Positions 3,858 through 32,990 of a stretch of 32,990 nucleotides of DNA are shown in pieces. Position 1 is the first letter of the stretch; every line of letters begins with the position of its first letter. The notes beneath the pieces were generated by a model. The model saw only the letters and a program-made list of their open reading frames with translations, had not been told where the DNA came from and ran no database searches. The position numbers and the translations under genes are program-made. This DNA is from Planctomycetota bacterium (GTDB taxonomy: Bacteria > Planctomycetota > Planctomycetia > Planctomycetales > Planctomycetaceae). The DNA lies in the NCBI GenBank assembly GCA_003696385.1, contig RFHO01000158.1, positions 1 through 32,990 on the forward strand, written 5' to 3'.

Positions 3858-4735
3858 CGGACGATCCGCGGCAGGACGTGCGTTTCGCGTTCGGTGAGAA
3901 CTGGCGGCGGTTTCTGCGCACGGTGGACGAGGCGCGGATCGCCGCCGCGGTCGGCTCGCTGCAGACGATGCTGGAGCGTGGAGATCTGAACGGCCTGCGA
4001 TTTCTGGACGTGGGTTGCGGCAGCGGCCTGTTCAGCCTGGCGGCGCGTCGTCTCGGGGCACGGGTGACGTCGTTCGACGTGGATCCACAATCGGTGGCCT
4101 GCACACGCGCGCTGAAGTGGCAATTCGCACCCGGCGATGCGGACTGGACGATTCTGGAGGGTTCGGTTCTGGACGCCACATTTGTGAAGCGGTTCGAACC
4201 GTTCGACGTGGTGTACAGCTGGGGCGTGCTGCATCACACCGGCGCGATGTGGGAAGCGTTGGAGAATGTCTGTGCGTTGGTCGCCCCGGACGGATACCTG
4301 TGTGTGGCGATCTACAACGACCAGGGCGGCGCCAGCCGTCGGTGGGCAGTGATCAAACGAACGTACAACGCCGCGCCGGCGGCGGTCCGATGGCTGATGG
4401 CCGCGGTGTTCTTCGTGGGTCACGAAGCGCGACAGGCAATGATTCGCGCGGTGCGGCTGAAGAATCCGCTGCCGTTTCGTGATTGGGCGGCGAAGAAACG
4501 GGAGCGAGGGATGTCGCCGTGGCACGACGCCGTGGACTGGATCGGCGGGTACCCGTTTGAAGTCGCGAAGCCGGAAGAGGTGTTCGACTTCGTGCGGCAA
4601 CGGGGATTCTGTCTGACGTACCTCCGCACGCAGGGTGGAGGGTACGGCTGCAACGAATTCACCTTCCGGCGTCATCCCTGCCCGCCGCCGGAGGCGGGTC
4701 ATCGATCGCGGCCGCTGGAGTCGCCCCGAGCCTGA
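3854..4735 (+). CDS. Class I SAM-dependent methyltransferase (UbiG-like fold)
   Basis: Motif I LRFLDVGCGSGLFSLAARRLGARVTSFDVDP; FDVVYSWGVLHHTGAMWEALENVCALVAPDGYLCVAIYN. Confidence 0.85.
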   Translation: MTDDPRQDVRFAFGENWRRFLRTVDEARIAAAVGSLQTMLERGDLNGLRFLDVGCGSGLFSLAARRLGARVTSFDVDPQSVACTRALKWQFAPGDADWTILEGSVLDATFVKRFEPFDVVYSWGVLHHTGAMWEALENVCALVAPDGYLCVAIYNDQGGASRRWAVIKRTYNAAPAAVRWLMAAVFFVGHEARQAMIRAVRLKNPLPFRDWAAKKRERGMSPWHDAVDWIGGYPFEVAKPEEVFDFVRQRGFCLTYLRTQGGGYGCNEFTFRRHPCPPPEAGHRSRPLESPRA

Positions 4736-5003
4736 ATCCGTCAAATTGGCACGGCAGTCAAGCTGCGTTTCACAGTGCGGTCCTGAAACCGTGCCGCCAA
4801 CGGAGCCCGGTCTCGCGGCGTATGGTTCGTTGGAAGGTCCGTCGTGCGGCGATTCGCGGGACCGGGCCCGAACCTGGTTCCGTGCAACGGCTTGCGGATG
4901 AGCGCACGGCCAGACGATGCAACAGCGGCGGACTGGCATCGCCGGCTCTGGGCGCGCGACGTGGTTGCTTCCATCGCTCGTGCCAGACCTTCTGCACACG
5001 TTC

Positions 5004-5019
5004 TGGCACGCTGTTTGCT
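5004..5019 (+). promoter_or_regulatory. Predicted sigma54 -24/-12 promoter upstream of htrA/degP
   Basis: CTGGCACG-CTGT-TTGCT matches the core consensus YTGGCACGNNNNTTGCW, with the required GG-N10-GC spacing (GG 5005-5006, GC 5017-5018). Confidence 0.7.
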
Positions 5020-5142
5020 GTGGTGCCGAGCGGACACTGCTGGCCCCGTCGCCGTGGTGGCGCCGCGGCGCAGTATCCGGCGGGCGGCATGGGCAGCAGC
5101 GGATGATGCGATAAGGATTCCAGCGAGAAGGAGGGCGGAGAC

Positions 5143-6660
5143 ATGCGTCAGACGGTTGGGATTCCGAAGTGGTTGCTATGTTTTCTGGTCGCCGGCGCGG
5201 CGACGGGCATTGCGGCGTTGGGGATCGTACTGGGGCCGGTGATTTCGTCCGCGGGGGCGCCCGCGGTTGCGCAGTCGGCACGGCCGCATTCGCCGGGTGT
5301 GGCGCAGGCGGACGACATTTCGCGGGCGTTCCGGCAGGCCGCCCGGATCATCGCTCCGAGCGTAGTGAGCATCGAGACTCAGAAACGCATCAATCTGCGG
5401 ATGCGGACGCCGTTTCGTGGAGACGTACCGGACGATTTTCTCCGCCGCTTCTTCGGCGACGACCTGGAGCGGTTTTTCGCCGTGCCCAGCCCGGGTGGCG
5501 TCCAGCACGGTTATGCGACCGGAGTCGTGGTCAGCCGGGACGGACACATTCTGACGAACAATCACGTGGTGGCCGACACCGACAAGATCCTGGTGCGGCT
5601 GCCGGGTGAGAAGACTTCGTACGACGCGACGCTGGTGGGCACGGACCCCAAGACGGACCTGGCGGTGATCAAGATCGATGCAGGTGACGTGGAACTTCAT
5701 CCGGCGCGACTGGCCGATTCGGATTCGTTGCAGGTCGGCGACTGGGTTCTGGCGGTCGGCGCCCCGTTCGGTCTGGACAATACGGTGACGGCCGGCATCA
5801 TCAGCGCGACCGGTCGGAATTCGGTCGGCATTGCCGATTATGAAAACTTCATCCAGACGGATGCGGCGATCAACCCCGGCAACAGCGGCGGCCCGCTGGT
5901 GAATCTGCGAGGCGAAGTCGTCGGCATCAATACGGCAATCGCCACGCGGTCTGGCGCCAACGCCGGAATCGGATTTGCGATTCCGAGCAACATGGCGCGG
6001 CGGATCATGCAAAGCCTGATCAAGACCGGGAAAGTCGAACGCGGCTGGTTGGGCGTGGTGATTCAGGATCTGAACAAGGGACTGGCGCGGTCGTTCGGCT
6101 ACACCGGAAGCGGCGGCGTACTGATCAGCGACGTCGCCCCCGACGGTCCGGGAGCGAAGGCCGGGCTGAAACCGGGTGACATCGTGGTGAAGTTCAACGG
6201 ACGGCCGGTCAACGGCGCCAGCGACCTGCGAAACCAGGTGGCTTCCACGCCGCCGAACACCGTGGTGGTGCTGGACGTGTTCCGTAACGGCAAAGTGCAG
6301 CAGGTGCGCGTCAAGCTCGGTCGGCTGGAAGAGTCCGCGTCGATCCAGAGCGTCGCTCCGGGCACGGCCGAGGTGGACGACTTGGGCATCGCCGTGCGAT
6401 CGTTGACTCCGGAGCTGGCCGAGCAACTGGGGTACGATCGCGACCAGAAGGGTGTGGTGGTCACCGAACTGGACCCCAACGGGCTGGCCGCACTTTCCGG
6501 GCTGCGTCGCGGTGACGTGATCGTCGACATCAATGGCATGGCCATCCGGTCGGTTTCGGACTTCAAGAAGGCGCTGCAGAAGTTCGACCTGAAGGAAGGC
6601 ATCCGCCTGACGGTCAAGAGCGGCGATTTCCATCGCTTCGTATTCATCCAGAAGCGCTGA
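5143..6660 (+). CDS. degP: HtrA/DegP-type periplasmic serine protease with two PDZ domains
   Basis: N-terminal signal/anchor; intact triad: LTNNHVV (His), KTDLAVIKI (Asp), NPGNSGGPL (Ser); PDZ segments GGVLISDVAPDGPGAKAGLKPGDIVVKFNGRPV and GVVVTELDPNGLAALSGLRRGDVIVDING. AGAAGGAGG upstream. Confidence 0.95.
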   Translation: MRQTVGIPKWLLCFLVAGAATGIAALGIVLGPVISSAGAPAVAQSARPHSPGVAQADDISRAFRQAARIIAPSVVSIETQKRINLRMRTPFRGDVPDDFLRRFFGDDLERFFAVPSPGGVQHGYATGVVVSRDGHILTNNHVVADTDKILVRLPGEKTSYDATLVGTDPKTDLAVIKIDAGDVELHPARLADSDSLQVGDWVLAVGAPFGLDNTVTAGIISATGRNSVGIADYENFIQTDAAINPGNSGGPLVNLRGEVVGINTAIATRSGANAGIGFAIPSNMARRIMQSLIKTGKVERGWLGVVIQDLNKGLARSFGYTGSGGVLISDVAPDGPGAKAGLKPGDIVVKFNGRPVNGASDLRNQVASTPPNTVVVLDVFRNGKVQQVRVKLGRLEESASIQSVAPGTAEVDDLGIAVRSLTPELAEQLGYDRDQKGVVVTELDPNGLAALSGLRRGDVIVDINGMAIRSVSDFKKALQKFDLKEGIRLTVKSGDFHRFVFIQKR

Positions 6661-6750
6661 AGCGCCGCCGCGGTGCGAGGGTTCGCCCGCAGCTGGGTTA
6701 CCTGGCCGCGGCGACGAGCCGGAGCGATCGCAGATGCCTGCAGCCTCCTG

Positions 6751-6786
6751 CCGGCACCGATCGGTGGAACCGTTCGGTGCCGGTTT
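6751..6786 (+). terminator. Possible rho-independent terminator after degP
   Basis: Perfect 10-bp stem CCGGCACCGA/TCGGTGCCGG with a 13-nt loop, followed by TTTCGTCT (weak T-tract). Confidence 0.45.
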
Positions 6787-7018
6787 CGTCTCGTGCCCGG
6801 CGATGGTGAAGCGCCGCCGGCAAGCGCCCCAGCGGCGACCGCGGCGAGACGACGAAACGGGGCAACCGCGCGTGGCGGTATTTTGCAACGAACGATACGC
6901 TGCGAGCAGCCCGCAACAGAAACACCGGCGGCGAACAGGCTGGGCGTCTGCGCGCGGTGAGACTCTGATGCGTGAGGACGGCCGCGACAGCGGATCCGAA
7001 CGACCGAGGAGCTTGCGC

Positions 7019-7759
7019 ATGAGGTTGTTGCTGCTATTGACCGGACTGGTGTTGATGGGCAACTTCGGCTGCCAGGGTAGCGTTCCGGCACCGGCTCCCC
7101 CGGTACGGACGGCACCCGATCCCGCCGCAGAGGACGATCCGACGGCCCCGCAGACGTATCAGGTGCGTTTCCACACGACCAAAGGTGATTTCGTGGTGGA
7201 AGTGCACCGTGACTGGGCGCCGCGGGGCGCGGATCGTTTCTATCGCCTGGTGAACGAGGGCTTCTACGACAATTGTGCGTTCTTCCGAATCGTGCCGAAC
7301 TTCGTCGTCCAGTTCGGCATCAACGGCGACCCGAGCGTGCAGGATCGGTGGCGGGACGCTGTGATCCTGGACGACCCGGTAAAACAGTCCAACCGCCGGG
7401 GCACGATCACCTTCGCCACCAGCGGGCCGCACAGTCGGACCACGCAGGTTTTCATCAACCTGGCGGACAACGGGCGGTTGGACGAGATGGGCTTTGCCCC
7501 GTTCGGCGAAGTGATCGAGGGCATGGACGTGGTCGATTCGCTGAACGCCGAATACGGCGAACGGCCGGATCAGTCACGGATCCAGTTCGAAGGGAACGCC
7601 TATCTGAAGCGCGAATTTCCGCGACTCGATTACATTCTGACCGCGCGGGTCGTTGCACCTGGAAAACCGGCGCAGTCCAGTTCGTCTGCGGCCTCCGGCG
7701 GAGGGCAACCGGACGGCGAAGAAGACGGACGCTCCGTATCGCCGCCGGAGGCGCCGTGA
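7019..7759 (+). CDS. Cyclophilin-type peptidyl-prolyl cis-trans isomerase, probable lipoprotein
   Basis: MRLLLLLTGLVLMGNFGCQG signal/lipobox-like; FHTTKGDFVVEVHRDWAPRGADRFYRLVNEGFYDNCAFFRIVPNFVVQFGINGDP...SRTTQVFINLADNGRLDEMGFAPFGEVIEGMDVVD. Confidence 0.9.
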   Translation: MRLLLLLTGLVLMGNFGCQGSVPAPAPPVRTAPDPAAEDDPTAPQTYQVRFHTTKGDFVVEVHRDWAPRGADRFYRLVNEGFYDNCAFFRIVPNFVVQFGINGDPSVQDRWRDAVILDDPVKQSNRRGTITFATSGPHSRTTQVFINLADNGRLDEMGFAPFGEVIEGMDVVDSLNAEYGERPDQSRIQFEGNAYLKREFPRLDYILTARVVAPGKPAQSSSSAASGGGQPDGEEDGRSVSPPEAP

Positions 7760-7848
7760 TGTCGGCGCCCGGCTGATTCCGCGGCATCGACGGTCGACCG
7801 CCGGGACGGACGCAGCGGGCGGCCGAACGTTTTGGGCGGATCCAACCG

Positions 7849-10800
7849 ATGTATCGTCGCACCAGTGATCGTGCCGCCCCGGCCGTAGGACAGGGACCGC
7901 AGACGACCCTGTGGCACGCGGTCACGGAGGTGCGGCAGTGCGAACCGGCCGCGCTGATCGTGCCCCCGCGGATCGTGCGGCGGATGATCAAGCTGGATCG
8001 GGAGCTTCCGTATCTGGGGCTGCGCGTGCCGCACAGCGACAGCCTGGTGGTGTCGCGAGCGACCCTGCTGCGGAACGTGGAGCCGGAAGAGGTCGACGGA
8101 GCGTCGCTGGAAGGTCTGCCCGAACGGGTTCTGCTGCTGGCTCGGCCCGGCGATCGCGAACTCGCAGGGATGACAGCCGGCGAGCTGCTGCTGCGACTGT
8201 CCCGGCAGATGGTACATGCCCGTGTTCATGCGGCGCTGGAAGACGCCATCCAATCGAAGCGACTCAAACCCCGCGACGTCCGCCGGCGGATCGACCAGCT
8301 GGGCCAGGTGGCCTTCGATGAGGCGGTCGCCGTATTGCGCTCGGAAGAACGTCTGTTCGACGATTTCGACGCGATCGACGCCTATTGTGAACTGGCGGCC
8401 ACCTTCATCGAACAGCGGACTTTCGTTCCGCATTGGCTGCCGGTGTACTTTCCATCGTTGCCGGATGCCGATCGCGTGGCGGCGATCATCGGGCAGGACA
8501 TCGACATCGAGCGCCTCGCCGGTGCAGAGCGGCTGCCGGCGTCGGTCGTTCCGATCGTTCAAGCGCAACGCGCGCACGTCCTGGAAGGGTTTGCGGATTG
8601 GGCGCGAACCGAGTCCTCGACGGCCGCCGTGCAGGAAAACGAAGCCGCTCAATTGATTCACGAATTCTCGGTGGCCAAAGAGGCGCTCGGACACGTGCAG
8701 CCCAATTCGTGGCACGTGCACCGATATCTGCGTCAGGCCGCACAGCGTCTGGAGCGCGGCAACACGGTGGGCGCGGCGGTCTGTCGCATGGCCGCGCTGG
8801 CCTGGGCGTTCCCGGCCGACTGGCATGCGATCGAAAATCTGGTCCTGGAATGCGTGCAGGAGCTGCGAAGGCGACTGTGTCGCGCACTGGCGCTGCCGGA
8901 CGAAGAGGCACATCAGTGGGACGCGTGCCTCGCCGAACTGCTGGTGCTCTCGATCGACGGCTTCTGGAACCATGAAAAACGGCTGCTGTACGACCTGCAG
9001 GCGATCTGCGTCGATTTCGAACGGCCCGTCCACCAGGTGGATCTGATCGGCTGGTTGCGGACGTTCGGTCGCCGTCCCCTGCAGCGTCCGCTGCCCAACC
9101 AGCAATTGGTTCAGATGACCAAGCGGCTGCAGCGGTCCATGCGTCGTCTGTCGCGCTGCCGGGTTTCGACGGACCGGCGCCGGCGGCTGCAGCGGCTGCT
9201 GTCGGCGGCGCTGGTGTCGACCGAACGACAGATGCGCCAGCGTTTCCGGCCGATGATCGAAGACGTGCTGGAGTCGACCGGTTTCGTTCCAGACGTACGG
9301 CCGGAGATCGTCGCCCGGCGGAAGCTGACCGAGGAACTGCTGGATATCGTCGCGGAGCACGGTCTGCTGACGTTCGGAAACCTTCGCGATGCGATCGCCC
9401 GCAACCAGTTGAAGCTGCCGGACGTGGGCGGTGTGGTGGAACTGTTGCTGGGAGACCGCCTGCTGCGTGCCAACCGGCTGCTGGGTGAGCGGTTGGAAGG
9501 CGTTTACCAGCGCGCCCCGTTCTACCTGCGGTGGCTCCAACGCCTCAGTTCGCTGGCATTCGGCACGCGAACCGGCCGGTTTTTGACGCGGTTCGTGGTG
9601 CTTCCCTACGGCGGCGCTTTCGTGGTCCTGGAGGGACTCAGCCATTTGTTGGGGCTGTTCCATGTGGACAACCAGCGGCTGCGTGCGGAAACGACACTTG
9701 TGGCAGTGGGGACGCTGATCCTGTTGTTGATGCACGCGCACCGCGTCCGCGAGGGACTCGTCCGTGTGCTGTGGTCTGTGGCCCGATGGCTGCGGCGGCT
9801 GGGCATCGAATGGCCGCAGTGGCTGCTGGAGTCCACGGGGTTGCGCCGTCTGTTGCGGAGTCGCTGGACGTTGCTGTTCCGCCGCACCGTGTTCGATCCC
9901 TTGCTGCTGACGGTGCTGATCTGCTGGGGTGGAGCGGCGGTCGGCTGGCTGCCGTCGGTACCGAACGTGTGGTGGCAGTTGGCCATGTGGATCGCTCTGA
10001 GCCTGTTGCTCAACTCGCGAGTGGGCCGGGACGTGGAAGAGGTCACCTCGGAATGGATCGCCCTGGCGTGGCGACAGGCATGTACCGCAGCGGCCGTGCT
10101 GTTCGAAGCGGTCATGACCACGTTCAAGCGGCTCTTGGAGGGTCTGGAACGGCTGCTGTACGCCGTGGACGAATGGCTGCGGTTTCGCACCGGTGAGAGC
10201 ACGCTGACTTTGGCATTGAAGGCCGTCCTGGGCGTCGGCTGGGCCGCGGTGTCGTACGTCGTGACGTTTGCGACGACGTTGCTGATCGAACCACAGATCA
10301 ATCCGATCAAGCATTTCCCCGTGGTCACGGTTTCGCACAAGATTCTGCTGCCGATGGCCGGTCCGCTGAGCAAGTTTCTGGCCCCGAGCCTGGGAACGGC
10401 GCTGGCGGGAACGGCCGCGGGAGCCATCGTGTTCGTCACACCCGGCATGTTCGGCTTTCTGGTGTGGGAGCTCAAATCGAACTGGCGGTTGTATGCGGCC
10501 AACCGGCCCAGGGAGTTGCGACCGGTGCTCGTCGGCCCGCATGGCGAAACGATGATCCGACTGATGAAACCGGGATTCCATTCGGGGACGCTGCCGAAGC
10601 TGTACCACCGGCTGCGATGGGCCGTTCGCCACGGTCACCCCGACCGTCCCGACGTCGCCGAACACAAATACCGCGAACGGCTCGCACACCTGCAGGAAGC
10701 CGTCTCGCGATTCTGCGAACGCGAGCTGCTCGGTCTGCTGAGAGTCTCCCGGCGATTCGGGGGGGTGGACTTGAGCGTGGAGTCCGTCCGCGTTGCTTCC

Positions 10801-11334
10801 AACAACATCCGTTTCCGCATCGCGTCGCAGTGGCCGGACGGCCCGCCCTGCGAGATCGCCTTTCAGGAACAATCGGGATTCCTCCTGGCGTGCGTGTTGG
10901 ACCTCGGGTGGCTCCGGGACTGTACGCCTGAGCAAAGATGCGTCTTCGCAACGGCACTGGCGGGGTTCTACAAACTCGCCGGTGTCGACCTGGTGCGTGA
11001 GCAGATCGAAAAGGCTCTGGGGCCGCACCATCCGCCCTACGACATTCGCGAACACTGGTTGGTGGTCTGGCCGGACGCCGCGTTCGAAACGGAGGTCCGT
11101 TACGACCTGTCGCACCGTGGCGAAATCAAGCCGTCACCGCGGTCCGCGGCGGAGGCGTTTTTGCTGCCGGTGCTGCACGGATCACGTCTGTTCTTTCGTG
11201 ACACACCGCTCACGTGGCAGTGGTGGGTGGAGTTCTGGGAAGCCGAATCGCTGGACGCCATCCCCTCACCACCGCCGCCGCACTGCCAGGTGCTGCCCGA
11301 TCCATCCGCCGATCCGCAGCCGCTGGGCTCCTGA
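7849..11334 (+). CDS. Large (1161 aa) membrane protein of unknown function
   Basis: Long soluble N-terminal region, about 5-6 hydrophobic segments (e.g. ETTLVAVGTLILLLMHA, PLLLTVLICWGGAAVGWL, ALKAVLGVGWAAVSYVVTFATTLLI, AGAIVFVTPGMFGFLVW), then a soluble C-terminal region. Amino-acid composition is normal, whereas the antisense ORF is Q/R/H-rich. Confidence 0.85.
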   Translation: MYRRTSDRAAPAVGQGPQTTLWHAVTEVRQCEPAALIVPPRIVRRMIKLDRELPYLGLRVPHSDSLVVSRATLLRNVEPEEVDGASLEGLPERVLLLARPGDRELAGMTAGELLLRLSRQMVHARVHAALEDAIQSKRLKPRDVRRRIDQLGQVAFDEAVAVLRSEERLFDDFDAIDAYCELAATFIEQRTFVPHWLPVYFPSLPDADRVAAIIGQDIDIERLAGAERLPASVVPIVQAQRAHVLEGFADWARTESSTAAVQENEAAQLIHEFSVAKEALGHVQPNSWHVHRYLRQAAQRLERGNTVGAAVCRMAALAWAFPADWHAIENLVLECVQELRRRLCRALALPDEEAHQWDACLAELLVLSIDGFWNHEKRLLYDLQAICVDFERPVHQVDLIGWLRTFGRRPLQRPLPNQQLVQMTKRLQRSMRRLSRCRVSTDRRRRLQRLLSAALVSTERQMRQRFRPMIEDVLESTGFVPDVRPEIVARRKLTEELLDIVAEHGLLTFGNLRDAIARNQLKLPDVGGVVELLLGDRLLRANRLLGERLEGVYQRAPFYLRWLQRLSSLAFGTRTGRFLTRFVVLPYGGAFVVLEGLSHLLGLFHVDNQRLRAETTLVAVGTLILLLMHAHRVREGLVRVLWSVARWLRRLGIEWPQWLLESTGLRRLLRSRWTLLFRRTVFDPLLLTVLICWGGAAVGWLPSVPNVWWQLAMWIALSLLLNSRVGRDVEEVTSEWIALAWRQACTAAAVLFEAVMTTFKRLLEGLERLLYAVDEWLRFRTGESTLTLALKAVLGVGWAAVSYVVTFATTLLIEPQINPIKHFPVVTVSHKILLPMAGPLSKFLAPSLGTALAGTAAGAIVFVTPGMFGFLVWELKSNWRLYAANRPRELRPVLVGPHGETMIRLMKPGFHSGTLPKLYHRLRWAVRHGHPDRPDVAEHKYRERLAHLQEAVSRFCERELLGLLRVSRRFGGVDLSVESVRVASNNIRFRIASQWPDGPPCEIAFQEQSGFLLACVLDLGWLRDCTPEQRCVFATALAGFYKLAGVDLVREQIEKALGPHHPPYDIREHWLVVWPDAAFETEVRYDLSHRGEIKPSPRSAAEAFLLPVLHGSRLFFRDTPLTWQWWVEFWEAESLDAIPSPPPPHCQVLPDPSADPQPLGS

Positions 11335-15485: not shown

Positions 15486-16850
15486 TCACGGAGTACAGAT
15501 CTCCGCGAACCAGCGTCGCAGTCGCCGCATCATCGGGCGGTCGTCCAGGAACATCGCCGTGGCGTGATAACCGAGCCCGGACCGCTCCCACGTCCAGCGC
15601 ACCTCGGGTCGCGTGGCCGCCACCACGGGCGCGTACTTCTTCGGATCATTGTCGATCTGAAAGATCGCACACCCCCGGAATCGCCGCGCCCGCTCGACCG
15701 CGCCCTCCATGGTCGATTGCCGCCAGTGTGAGCCGTCATAGTGCTGGCAGGCCACGAACGCTTTCCACAACCCCGCAATGCGATCGTTCCGCAGGCCGAT
15801 GTACCCACAGGCGATGGCCCCCCGCGAAAACCCGCTCAGGACAACGTTCCGCCGGTCCCCACCCCAGCGATCGCAGATTTCTTCGATTACCCGCACAGTG
15901 TACGCGGCGGTGTCATCCCCGTCATTGGAACCGAATCCCGCTTCGGCGATCGTTCCCTGCCGCCGGTCGACGAACGGCAGGCTGACCCAGATCGCCCCTC
16001 GTCCGCGGCTGATGCCATAACCGATCACGCATTGCTCGGGCCGTCCCGTCGACCAGCACGCCCGCGCGTCGAAGAACACGTTTCCGGGAAACTCGGCGAT
16101 CACCGGAAAGCTCCCGCGAGGCGTCCAGTCCTCCGGAAGGTAAACCGCGCAGTAGGCCTCCGAATCGTCACCGGGCAGGCGGTACCGGACGCGCCGCCCG
16201 GGCCGCGGCGGGCCGTCGGTCATTTCCGGAACCAGCAACCGATTCCCCGGCGGCGTCCATCGGGGCGCTTGGCCTTCGGTTCGCAAATCCGACACCTCCA
16301 GAGTGGCCCGCTCCGTGCGTTGTATCATCACCCGGATTTCAGCCAATCGCGTCGGGTCGATCTTCGGGGTTCCGTCGGGATACCGCTCCCGCAGGTCGCA
16401 TCGGAGCTGTTCGGTGCTCCCCGGCTCGCTGCGGACCACGTCACCGACCGCCGCCCAGCCGTGCGAACCGACCGCCCACAGCGTCACCACCGCCGGATCA
16501 TCCCCCACGTTGCGGACCGTGGCCGTGACGAATCGGACCTCCGACAGCCGCCAGCCCTCACGCGGCGACGGGATGGAAACCCACGCCACGCTGCGACGCG
16601 GATCCGGTACGCCCTCGCCCAGCGGAAGGGCCAGGCCATCCTGAGTCAGTCGCAGCACCCGGTTCCCGGCCCGCGAAGCGAATTCGGCCCGCAGTCCACG
16701 GCACGATAGCCCACCCGTTTCGGAGAAGACATGGTCCCACAACGCCCCCGCCTCCGCGTCGTCCTGCAACGCCCCCACCATTGCCGCACCGGCCGCGAAG
16801 AACACCACGATCGCCCGGACGATCCGCGCCCGTCGACGCCGATCACACAT
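15486..16850 (-). CDS. Exported alpha/beta hydrolase (esterase/PHB-depolymerase-like) with an N-terminal beta-type domain
   Basis: Start MCDRRRRARIVRAIVVFFAAGAAMVGA (signal/anchor); nucleophile elbow NVVLSGFSRGAIAC; possible His in GLGYHATAMF. The ORF track extends to 17327 but the hydrophobic leader supports a start at 16850. Confidence 0.7.
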   Translation of the reverse strand: MCDRRRRARIVRAIVVFFAAGAAMVGALQDDAEAGALWDHVFSETGGLSCRGLRAEFASRAGNRVLRLTQDGLALPLGEGVPDPRRSVAWVSIPSPREGWRLSEVRFVTATVRNVGDDPAVVTLWAVGSHGWAAVGDVVRSEPGSTEQLRCDLRERYPDGTPKIDPTRLAEIRVMIQRTERATLEVSDLRTEGQAPRWTPPGNRLLVPEMTDGPPRPGRRVRYRLPGDDSEAYCAVYLPEDWTPRGSFPVIAEFPGNVFFDARACWSTGRPEQCVIGYGISRGRGAIWVSLPFVDRRQGTIAEAGFGSNDGDDTAAYTVRVIEEICDRWGGDRRNVVLSGFSRGAIACGYIGLRNDRIAGLWKAFVACQHYDGSHWRQSTMEGAVERARRFRGCAIFQIDNDPKKYAPVVAATRPEVRWTWERSGLGYHATAMFLDDRPMMRRLRRWFAEICTP

Positions 16851-17101
16851 TCCGCAACTCCCCGCCCCGAAGAACGGGATCGCTCGAGACGATCGCCTCC
16901 GCTTCCCGCAGACGCACCGCATCCCGTGCGCCAACGGGACCTCCGGTTCCGCCACCGCTCCCCCAGCACCGACAGCATGAAGACTGCACGTCCGGAACAC
17001 CGCTTGCCCGATCCGTCTCCGAGGCGGTTCAGTGTGACATGCATCGGTCGCCACCGCCGTGCGGATTGTGTGCGCCGACCGAACCGGCTCTCCGGCACGG
17101 T

Positions 17102-17986
17102 TCACTGCTCGGCGAGCTGACGCTGTGCCTCCCGGAACCGCTCCACCATCTCGCTCGCCGAACTCCAGCGGTCGTCCGGGTGCTTCTCCAGCCCCTTCAT
17201 GATCGTCTCGGCGACCAGCTCCGGGACCTCCGGGTTCAACGAACGGATGTCGCGTGGCGGCTGGTTGATGTGCTTGACCACCGCGTCCAGCGATCGGTCG
17301 GCCTCGAACGGCAGCTCTCCCGTCCACATCTCGTAACAGGTGACCGCATACGAATACAGATCGATCCGATGGTCCGTCCGCTGTCGCTTGATCAGCTCCG
17401 GGGCCATGTGCGTGGCCGTTCCGGTGCGATTGCCCGGCCGTTGGAATTCCGGAGTGTTCGGCACGACCAGACCGAAGTCGATCAGCTTGACGACGTTGTC
17501 GTTGCGAACCATCACGTTGCGCGGGCAGATGTCACGGTGGATCCAATCATGCCTGTGCAACCAGTCGATGGCTTCCCCGAGCTGGATCATGTAGCTGATA
17601 CGGTGCTTCTTCATCCGCTCGCTTTGCACATCGACCAGGTAACTGAGCCCGACCCCTTCGATGAATTCCATCACCAGGAACTGCTCGAGTTCCTTCGTCC
17701 AGCCGTACTCATAGGTCTCGACGATGTTCGGGTGCTTCAACTGAACGGCGATTTCGCCTTCCGTCGGCCTGGCCAGCCCCGCAAACCGGGCTTCCAGTTG
17801 CTCCGTCTTCAGCTTGTCCAGGACTTTCAGTGCGACGAGTTGCCCGGTCTTGGTGTCGCGTGCGCGCCAAACGCGAGACATGCTGCCCTGCCCGACCCGA
17901 CTGATCAGCTCGAATCGTCGCGTGATGTCGGTCAGCTCGATCTTCTGCTTCGGCGCCCACAGCCGTCGGATGAACTCGAATACCAT
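17102..17986 (-). CDS. Hanks-type Ser/Thr protein kinase (variant catalytic loop HRDICPRN)
   Basis: GQGSMSRVWRARD (Gly loop), LVALKVL (VAIK Lys), GEIAVQLKHPNIV (alphaC Glu), HRDICPRNVM, KLIDFGLV (DFG), THMAPELIK (APE). Start MVFEFIRRLW. Confidence 0.9.
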   Translation of the reverse strand: MVFEFIRRLWAPKQKIELTDITRRFELISRVGQGSMSRVWRARDTKTGQLVALKVLDKLKTEQLEARFAGLARPTEGEIAVQLKHPNIVETYEYGWTKELEQFLVMEFIEGVGLSYLVDVQSERMKKHRISYMIQLGEAIDWLHRHDWIHRDICPRNVMVRNDNVVKLIDFGLVVPNTPEFQRPGNRTGTATHMAPELIKRQRTDHRIDLYSYAVTCYEMWTGELPFEADRSLDAVVKHINQPPRDIRSLNPEVPELVAETIMKGLEKHPDDRWSSASEMVERFREAQRQLAEQ

Positions 17987-30728: not shown

Positions 30729-32819
30729 TCAAACGGCGTCCAGCACGTCCAGCCAACGTCCGATCCGCTCGACGACGTCCCGCGGCAGTTCGCGCACCGC
30801 ACGCGTCTTCGGCAGGCCGTCGAGCACCGTCGGAAACTTGGCCTTGCGCAGGGCAGCCGCCGACTGGCCAATCGACTTCCAGGTCGGTGAATCCATGCCC
30901 CCGATCAGGTAGAAGGCCATCCGCCGGTCGGGATCCGGTTCGGCGGGGCGCACCACCACCGGCGCATCGACCGCGATCACGCCGCGCAACAGTTCGGTGT
31001 TTCTGGCCACGAGCACGGACGCGGGCGCCACGCTGTCCGCTGCCCCCATGGCGACGATGCGATTCGGATCGACGGTGTAGCGCTGCCGGAACGATTCGAC
31101 CAGTTCGATCACGGCGGGCAGATCGGCCGGTCTGAAGCCCGCCGCATCGTCGGTCGTGGGCGCGAGCACAATGAGTCCGCGGTTGTCACAGATCGGCTTC
31201 AACGCCCTCAGCATTTCGGCCATCATCGTGTCGCCCCGCGGATGCAACCACACGATCAGGCCATAGGAGTGGTCGGGGTTGTAATCGGCCGGCACATAGG
31301 CCCAGTAACCGGGATGTTCGTCCGTTGCCCGCTCCACAAAGTAACCGGTCTTCTGCGTCACCGCCATGGCTGGCGGCGGGATCGTCTGCGGCGGCAATTT
31401 GTCCGGAACCGTCTGCGGCCATGACGCCAGCTCCACTTCGACGTCGAACGCTTCCTCACCCCGTCGGAAACGCAGCGCCACGCGTTCGCCCGGAAGCCTG
31501 CGGCTGATCGCGTCCTCCAGATCCTCCGGTGTGGAAACGCCACGGTCGCCGACCTTGACGATCCGGTCCCGCGAACGCAGTCCGGCGGCGGCTGCGGGAC
31601 TGTCGGGAAATACGAACCTCACGGCGACGCCGGCTTCAACCGCCTCGGTGTCCTGCCGCTCGGAAGCCGCCAGACGAAACGGCAAGACCCCCAGGAACGG
31701 ACGCTCGTACGGCGGCAACTCCGCCACCAGCGTGACCGTGGCATGAAACGTCGCCGAGCCGCGCCTGAAGTCCAACGACACCTCCTCGCCGGCCCACTTG
31801 CCACCGAGGATCTGCAGAACTTGCGCGATCCGCTGGACCGGTCGACCGTCTACCGCGGTCAATTCGTCACCCGGCCGGATCCCCGCTTGTTCGGCCGGCG
31901 ACTTGACGCGCACACGGTCAACGATCGGCCGAGTGGCATAGATGTCCCGCCCGCGGAACGTGACGCCCAGCAAGCCGGGGTGCAGATCCTGACCGGCCTT
32001 CAGCCGCGGAAGAATCCGCTGCACATCGTCCCACGGAATCGCAAAACCGATTCCCGAATCGTACCACTCCACGCCGGCGACTTCCGATGCCCCGCGGCGC
32101 ATCGACAGCGGCACGATGATCCCGATGACCCGGCCGTGGACATCCACCAACGGACCGCCGTAATTGACCGGCGACGTCTTGGCGTCCGTCTGGACGGCCT
32201 TACCCCACACACGGCGCAGGCCACTGATGATCCCCACCGAAATGCTGGGCAGCGGCTGATCGTACGTCCGCCCCAGCGCGATGGCCCATTCTCCGACCCG
32301 TACCGTTTCCTGCGGGGCACCACGCGGGACTGCCAGATCCGCGGCCTCGACCTTCAACAGAGTCAGCATCCGCGCGTGGTCCTGGGCCACCAATCGGGCC
32401 GGCAGACGCCGCCCATCAGGCAGGGTCACGAGGATCGTCGAGGGCTTTTGGGCAAAATTGAAAGCACTGGAGACAATGTAGCCATCGGCGCTCACGACCA
32501 CGCCGGTCGTCGCCCCCATATTCGTCAGCACGCCGCCGACGCGATCGAGGCCTCCGACCGTCTGGATGCGGACGACCGAGGGCGCCACCAGCGCTGCCGC
32601 CTCCTGGAACGCACGCTGTTCGAGCAACATCAGCTCCACGTCGCCGACGGCCGGCCCGGAGTCCGGCGGCTCGTCCGCGGCCAACAACCGGCCACCGGCC
32701 CGCGGCACCACCCACAGCCACGCCAGCAGTAACACGCACCCGACGCACCGAAGCATTTCCGGCAATGGGCGCATCACCGTCGTTCCCTTTCGGCGGAACC
32801 GCGTTGAGCGATCGATCAT
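30729..32819 (-). CDS. Predicted catalytically inactive HtrA-like domain + two PDZ domains + alpha/beta-hydrolase-like domain (secreted fusion)
   Basis: Signal MRPLPEMLRCVGCVLLLAWLWVV; trypsin-fold landmarks TTGVVVSADGYIVSSAFNFAQ, LVAQDHARMLTLLKVE, TDAKTSPVNYGGPLVD; PDZ VRVKSPAEQAGIRPGDELTAVDGRPV and FVFPDSPAAAAGLRSRDRIVKVGDRGV; C-terminal GYWAYVPADYNPDHSYGLIVWLHPRGD...TVDPNRIVAMGAADSVAP. Confidence 0.85.
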   Translation of the reverse strand: MIDRSTRFRRKGTTVMRPLPEMLRCVGCVLLLAWLWVVPRAGGRLLAADEPPDSGPAVGDVELMLLEQRAFQEAAALVAPSVVRIQTVGGLDRVGGVLTNMGATTGVVVSADGYIVSSAFNFAQKPSTILVTLPDGRRLPARLVAQDHARMLTLLKVEAADLAVPRGAPQETVRVGEWAIALGRTYDQPLPSISVGIISGLRRVWGKAVQTDAKTSPVNYGGPLVDVHGRVIGIIVPLSMRRGASEVAGVEWYDSGIGFAIPWDDVQRILPRLKAGQDLHPGLLGVTFRGRDIYATRPIVDRVRVKSPAEQAGIRPGDELTAVDGRPVQRIAQVLQILGGKWAGEEVSLDFRRGSATFHATVTLVAELPPYERPFLGVLPFRLAASERQDTEAVEAGVAVRFVFPDSPAAAAGLRSRDRIVKVGDRGVSTPEDLEDAISRRLPGERVALRFRRGEEAFDVEVELASWPQTVPDKLPPQTIPPPAMAVTQKTGYFVERATDEHPGYWAYVPADYNPDHSYGLIVWLHPRGDTMMAEMLRALKPICDNRGLIVLAPTTDDAAGFRPADLPAVIELVESFRQRYTVDPNRIVAMGAADSVAPASVLVARNTELLRGVIAVDAPVVVRPAEPDPDRRMAFYLIGGMDSPTWKSIGQSAAALRKAKFPTVLDGLPKTRAVRELPRDVVERIGRWLDVLDAV

Positions 32820-32990
32820 CGTTTCCGTTCTCGCATCGTAACTTGCACGGACTACGTCGCGCACACCCGGCACCGCAGGCTTCTCCGGAGCCGCGGACGC
32901 ACACGGCTGGCCCGCCGCGTGGTTTCCTCGTGGGACCGCTGCCGGCAAGCCGTGCCAGACGCCGCGCAGTGAGCGGCTCACGGCGCGGCA

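Follow-up and report, generated by a model that had tools for sequence, protein, structure and literature searches.

The minus strand of a 32,990-nucleotide stretch of a Planctomycetota contig (RFHO01000158.1, assembly GCA_003696385.1; the whole stretch is referred to as the window) encodes a protein in which an HtrA-type protease domain without its catalytic residues is followed by two PDZ domains and by an alpha/beta-hydrolase fold without its nucleophile. This raises the questions of whether the gene, here called gene C, is decaying or is maintained for a non-catalytic role, and with which partner its product might act. The host genome is a Pirellulales-like MAG of the class Planctomycetia, with relatives that include Pirellulales, Blastopirellula and Bythopirellula.

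Gene C reads without interruption on the minus strand from 32819 to 30729 as 696 residues and a stop codon; the plus-strand frame over the same interval is broken by stops. A preliminary description of the window had reported this frame as 697 uninterrupted codons, with the right coordinates and the strand left out, and the four altered motifs that it named are all present in the minus-strand translation (Table 1). The first ATG lies at 32819. The start is probably at residue 16 (ATG at 32774), where AAAGGGA precedes the codon and a hydrophobic stretch follows that looks, by eye, like a typical signal peptide; judged from this N-terminus, the product is apparently exported. In Pfam, the protein matched Trypsin_2 (1.6e-23, residues 105-234) and PDZ domains over their cut-offs. 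In NCBIfam, the Do-type HtrA models matched well below their cut-offs (TIGR02037, 178.6 bits vs a cut-off of 416.2), and a PHA-depolymerase model of the short-chain type matched weakly over residues 504-620. The AlphaFold model of the whole protein as a monomer was confident (pLDDT 87.9, pTM 0.84), and its top Foldseek matches were DegP and DegQ.

Table 1. Coordinates of gene C, its domains and altered sites, the end of gene B, and the A-B fusions. Positions refer to the window, except for the fusions, which are numbered within their own loci.
Feature	Position	Strand	Basis
Gene C, pseudo-HtrA / 2x PDZ / degenerate alpha-beta hydrolase, 696 aa	30729..32819	-	ORF, Pfam, NCBIfam, model
HtrA-type (Trypsin_2) domain without catalytic triad, residues ~68-275	31995..32618	-	Pfam; Foldseek DegP/DegQ
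His site VSSAFNF, residues 116-122, Phe120 replaces His	32454..32474	-	105-ortholog alignment
Asp site ARMLTLLKV, residues 149-157, Met151 replaces Asp	32349..32375	-	105-ortholog alignment
Ser site, NYGGP codons (VNYGGPL, residues 218-224), Tyr220 replaces Ser	32151..32165	-	105-ortholog alignment
PDZ domain 1, residues ~280-366	31722..31982	-	Pfam
PDZ domain 2, residues ~376-466, core GLRSRD	31422..31694	-	Pfam
Alpha/beta-hydrolase fold domain, residues ~490-696	30732..31352	-	Model of the domain alone, pLDDT 94, pTM 0.91; Foldseek
Nucleophile elbow GAADS (residues 592-596, in IVAMGAADS), Ala594 replaces Ser	31032..31046	-	Model: strand 583-593, helix 594-606
Gene B, last codons and stop TGA (32980-32978); body of B on contig C270	32978..32990	-	Overlap with end of C270
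A-B fusion, locus L178	2805-5603	-	Single open frame
A-B fusion, locus L172	1754-4888	+	Single open frame
A-B fusion, locus L168	4945-8814	-	Single open frame

For the protease domain, the replacements seen in the window were shared by the orthologs. Of the 105 sequences in a combined alignment, 104 had Tyr and one had Val in place of the nucleophile. The His position was Phe or Tyr in 96 and His in none, and the Asp position, which was mostly hydrophobic, was Asp in none. The motif losses are therefore not due to chance, since the same replacements recur in about 100 orthologs. Glycine at chymotrypsin position 193 is needed for the oxyanion hole. The corresponding residue in C, before the Asn of NYGGP, is Val218, and among 56 C sequences this position held V, A, N, T, I, L, Y or S and in no case Gly. 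By the argument made for MamO (PMC4794232), this loss should disfavour the active conformation of the loop. These results indicate that C is a pseudoprotease, in which the HtrA triad has been lost and the replacement site is fixed in the orthologs.

Full-length orthologs of C, with about 40-50% identity, were found in nearly every genus of the host's family. In every domain dN/dS was well below 1, and in most comparisons the dead protease domain had the smallest value. The closest pair that could be used, L115/L067, gave an omega of 0.017 in the protease domain, 0.12 in the PDZ domains and 0.10 in the hydrolase domain; the corresponding values were 0.023, 0.061 and 0.048 for L071/L073, and 0.041, 0.088 and 0.132 for L082/L083. 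For many other pairs, dS was saturated and dN/dS is qualitative only. The dead protease domain was also the best-conserved part of the protein, with a mean majority fraction of 0.67 vs 0.51, 0.47 and 0.44 elsewhere. Gene C is thus maintained, non-catalytic and not decaying, as the preliminary description had proposed for an exported protein.

The C-terminal domain presented a different picture. Pfam gave no real match to it. The best Foldseek matches to a model of the domain alone, at a probability of 1.00 and an identity of 11-19%, were esterase D, the LC-Est1 esterase domain, feruloyl esterases and carboxylesterases. Ala594 occupied the modelled strand-turn-helix spot where the nucleophile belongs. 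Among 54 orthologs, however, the elbow position varied, being Ser in three, and a His was present in the expected loop in 11; the conservation of the elbow Ala, put forward as a check, was therefore not found. In contrast to the fixed pseudo-site of the protease domain, the site of the hydrolase domain has therefore been relaxed or lost. In addition, short forms of C without the hydrolase domain occur in several families of the class and among the orthologs looked at in other classes, so the domain was probably a later addition to an old core formed by the dead protease. The term "doubly degenerate" given to the protein accordingly holds for the protease site as a fixed feature, and not in the same sense for the hydrolase. 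Similarly, of the two PDZ cores described as GL/GI-xxGD, the first is intact (GIRPGD), whereas the second lacks the glycine of GD. We propose, as part of the best explanation, that C gained its second PDZ domain and the non-catalytic esterase-like domain in the host's class.

Two observations belong beside these. Short C orthologs of the same class, 335-450 aa long, lie at L148-L151 and L153-L160, in the families f7, f11 and f12. The window encodes a further alpha/beta-hydrolase-like protein at 15486-17327 on the minus strand, with a nucleophile motif, GFSRG, that looks intact by eye.

The relatives carry C at the end of a run of co-directional genes, in the order family 6, family 3, family 5, family 2, A, B and C. 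The products are about 720 aa (family 6), 636 aa (family 3), 380 aa (family 5), 415 aa (family 2, with an NPCBM domain), 620 aa (A) and 370 aa (B). Gene A encodes an HtrA with an intact H/D/S triad in 35 of 35 sequences. Gene B encodes a second pseudo-HtrA, with S, N or G at the His position and A, G, E, P or T at the Ser position in all 31 sequences. Families 3, 5 and 6 had no real Pfam match; at L050 they occupy 4639-11131, and family 3 contains long repeats of low complexity, made up of Q/G or of E/S/G. The C-terminal domain of A, about 200 aa long (L050, 13790-14422), was aligned in 34 sequences and had no Pfam match.

In the host genome, families 6, 3, 5 and 2 together with A and B lie off the window contig, on contig C270 (L050). 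The end of C270 (L050, 15527-15653) matches the minus strand of the window at 32864-32990 at 121 of 127 positions without gaps, which indicates that C270 and the window contig adjoin each other in the genome; the assembly was probably split there by variation between strains, seen as the six mismatches. In this genome, family 6 is preceded by an unrelated carbon-nitrogen-hydrolase-like gene rather than by MoxR. All or most of a MoxR-DUF58-VWA-VWA (BatA-like) block, with genes named by eye, was found upstream of the run in 12 of 15 relatives. It lies directly upstream of the HtrA cassette at L086, L089-L094 and L096-L100.

Among 57 loci that were fetched for holding C and had more than 3.5 kb upstream, B was directly upstream of C in 50, and A, B and C stood in order in 49. 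Six of these loci (L178-L183) had been chosen with long B frames in mind, and the counts are 44 and 43 of 51 when they are set aside. The linkage of the three genes is not obligatory, because C was apart from B in 7 of the 57.

In a tree of the protease domains, A, B and C each formed one clade (support 100/100, 100/98 and 100/99, respectively), and each clade spanned all the classes sampled; the three genes are therefore older than the splits between classes. The trio itself was found in other classes of Planctomycetota, in several cases with families 2, 3, 5 or 6, and B and C seem to have remained inactive from the divergence of the classes onward. A profile search of 298 sampled genomes of the host's class detected C in 243 and B in 245. 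Every genome with C also had B, and two (G048 and G212) had B without C. Absence of the cassette was concentrated in one family (f2), and since this one lineage dominates, the co-occurrence within the class amounts to few independent events. The family may correspond to the order of Planctopirus limnophila, for which the main text of an essential-gene study is silent on HtrA, MoxR and VWA genes.

A single open frame joins A and B in three genomes, with 933 aa at L178, 1045 aa at L172 and 1290 aa at L168 (Table 1), which points to joint action of the two. The fusions seen join A and B only, and none involving C was found. Other loci flagged as fused without a real B match (L054, L063 and others) were artefacts, and suspected fusions at L179-L183 proved to be separate or overlapping frames. 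The B part of the fusion at L168 reads NPGAYGGP and so, like C, has Tyr where the Ser would be.

Taken as a whole, C carries a catalytic loss that is kept in its orthologs under purifying selection, and it is encoded beside an HtrA, gene A, that is active as judged from its sequence. We consider that C is the non-catalytic third member of an HtrA trio, in which A is active and B and C are inactive, and that it acts with A, with a probability of roughly 0.6. The dedicated neighbour A, which lies on the contig overlapping the window end, is the natural partner, and not the unlinked HtrA at 5143-6660. We infer that A, B and C are co-expressed and exported, and that C contacts A or B within a complex that has a regulatory role. 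Most probably, B and C would join A, either in mixed HtrA oligomers or as adaptors, in the periplasm or on the surface of the cell. Their PDZ domains would bind substrates or peptide signals, so that B and C could set when and on what A cuts, and the dead hydrolase domain of C would add binding surface.

The closest analogue of A and C appears to be MamE and MamO of magnetotactic bacteria. MamO is a pseudo-HtrA with Thr in place of the nucleophile and Glu at position 193. It activates the HtrA MamE without catalysis, such that MamE-dependent processing requires MamO and not the triad of MamO, and it carries a TauE-like transporter and binds metal (PMC4794232). Both systems pair an active HtrA with a pseudo-HtrA, encoded in one gene island there and in one cassette here. 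Unlike MamE/MamO, the trio has two pseudo-HtrAs, C contains PDZ domains together with a hydrolase fold, and the cassette spans a phylum and contains no recognised magnetosome gene. C itself gave no TauE-like Pfam match and scored 28.5 bits against the NCBIfam MamO model, vs a cut-off of 800.

With DegP, DegQ and DegS of the Do family, which gave its top sequence and fold matches, C shares a Trypsin_2 domain followed by PDZ domains; it differs from them in lacking the triad and the oxyanion Gly, in scoring far below the TIGR02037 cut-off, and in carrying the additional hydrolase domain. Its C-terminal domain resembles hydrolases of the esterase D, feruloyl esterase and PHA-depolymerase type in fold and in a weak profile match, and lacks the conserved nucleophile of GxSxG that these have. 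The block of MoxR, DUF58 and VWA genes upstream in relatives recalls MoxR-VWA (Bat-like) operons, but it is not contiguous with the cassette in the host genome. The literature searched contained no report of a MoxR-VWA operon with HtrA genes. We found no report of the A-B-C trio in the open literature. Pseudo-HtrAs as such are known, from MamO; we regard as new the grouping of an active HtrA with two inactive ones that are both conserved, here including the composite pseudoprotease/pseudohydrolase formed by C.

It is rather unlikely that C instead binds a ligand, a metal or an envelope component, as a scaffold for the MoxR/VWA machinery, apart from the proteolysis by A. The company of MoxR, DUF58 and VWA genes in many relatives is consistent with such a role, as is the metal-binding role of MamO (PMC4794232), and Lys214 and Ser216, both conserved next to the dead site, point to a pocket that has been remodelled. 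However, C adjoins A and B more tightly than it does MoxR, which is not upstream here. Still less probable is an enzyme with an unrecognised active site, built for example from Ser216, Lys214 and Asp212 near the old pocket. Such a site would be consistent with Asp212, Ser216 and Tyr220, which do not vary among 56 C sequences, and with Lys214, which hardly varies; Gly221 and Gly222 are likewise the same in all 56. However, the aromatic His site, the mostly hydrophobic Asp site, the absence of the oxyanion Gly193, the variable hydrolase elbow, and fold matches to ordinary HtrAs and esterases all argue against it.

The preliminary description had favoured the intact HtrA at 5143-6660 as the protease that C regulates. 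The two genes share a contig, and their products would be expected in the same compartment. However, that gene encodes a normal HtrA of the Do family and is one of ten in this genome with a Trypsin_2 domain; it is absent from the conserved neighbours of C in relatives, which are A and B, and a dedicated active HtrA, A, is encoded two genes upstream of C. We therefore regard this partnership as very improbable. Decay, local mutation or mis-sequencing of gene C, for which nothing speaks beyond the missing residues themselves, is refuted by the same replacements in about 100 orthologs, the low dN/dS and the long open frames.

HtrA proteases have mostly been treated as self-regulating homo-oligomers. 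The presence of one live and two dead HtrA paralogs across a phylum suggests that dedicated inactive subunits are an old and regular regulatory strategy. An extended form of the reading in which C acts with A, tentative and on balance doubtful, is that the products of A, B and C assemble, across the phylum, into a hetero-oligomeric HtrA machine coupled to a MoxR-VWA module, in which obligatorily inactive B and C provide substrate choice and allosteric gating. If true, it would be an extracytoplasmic counterpart of the mixed active/inactive protease rings. The A-B fusions and the separated C genes provide ready test sets for how pseudoproteases work, and the trio offers a direct way into the envelope biology of Planctomycetota, which is poorly understood.
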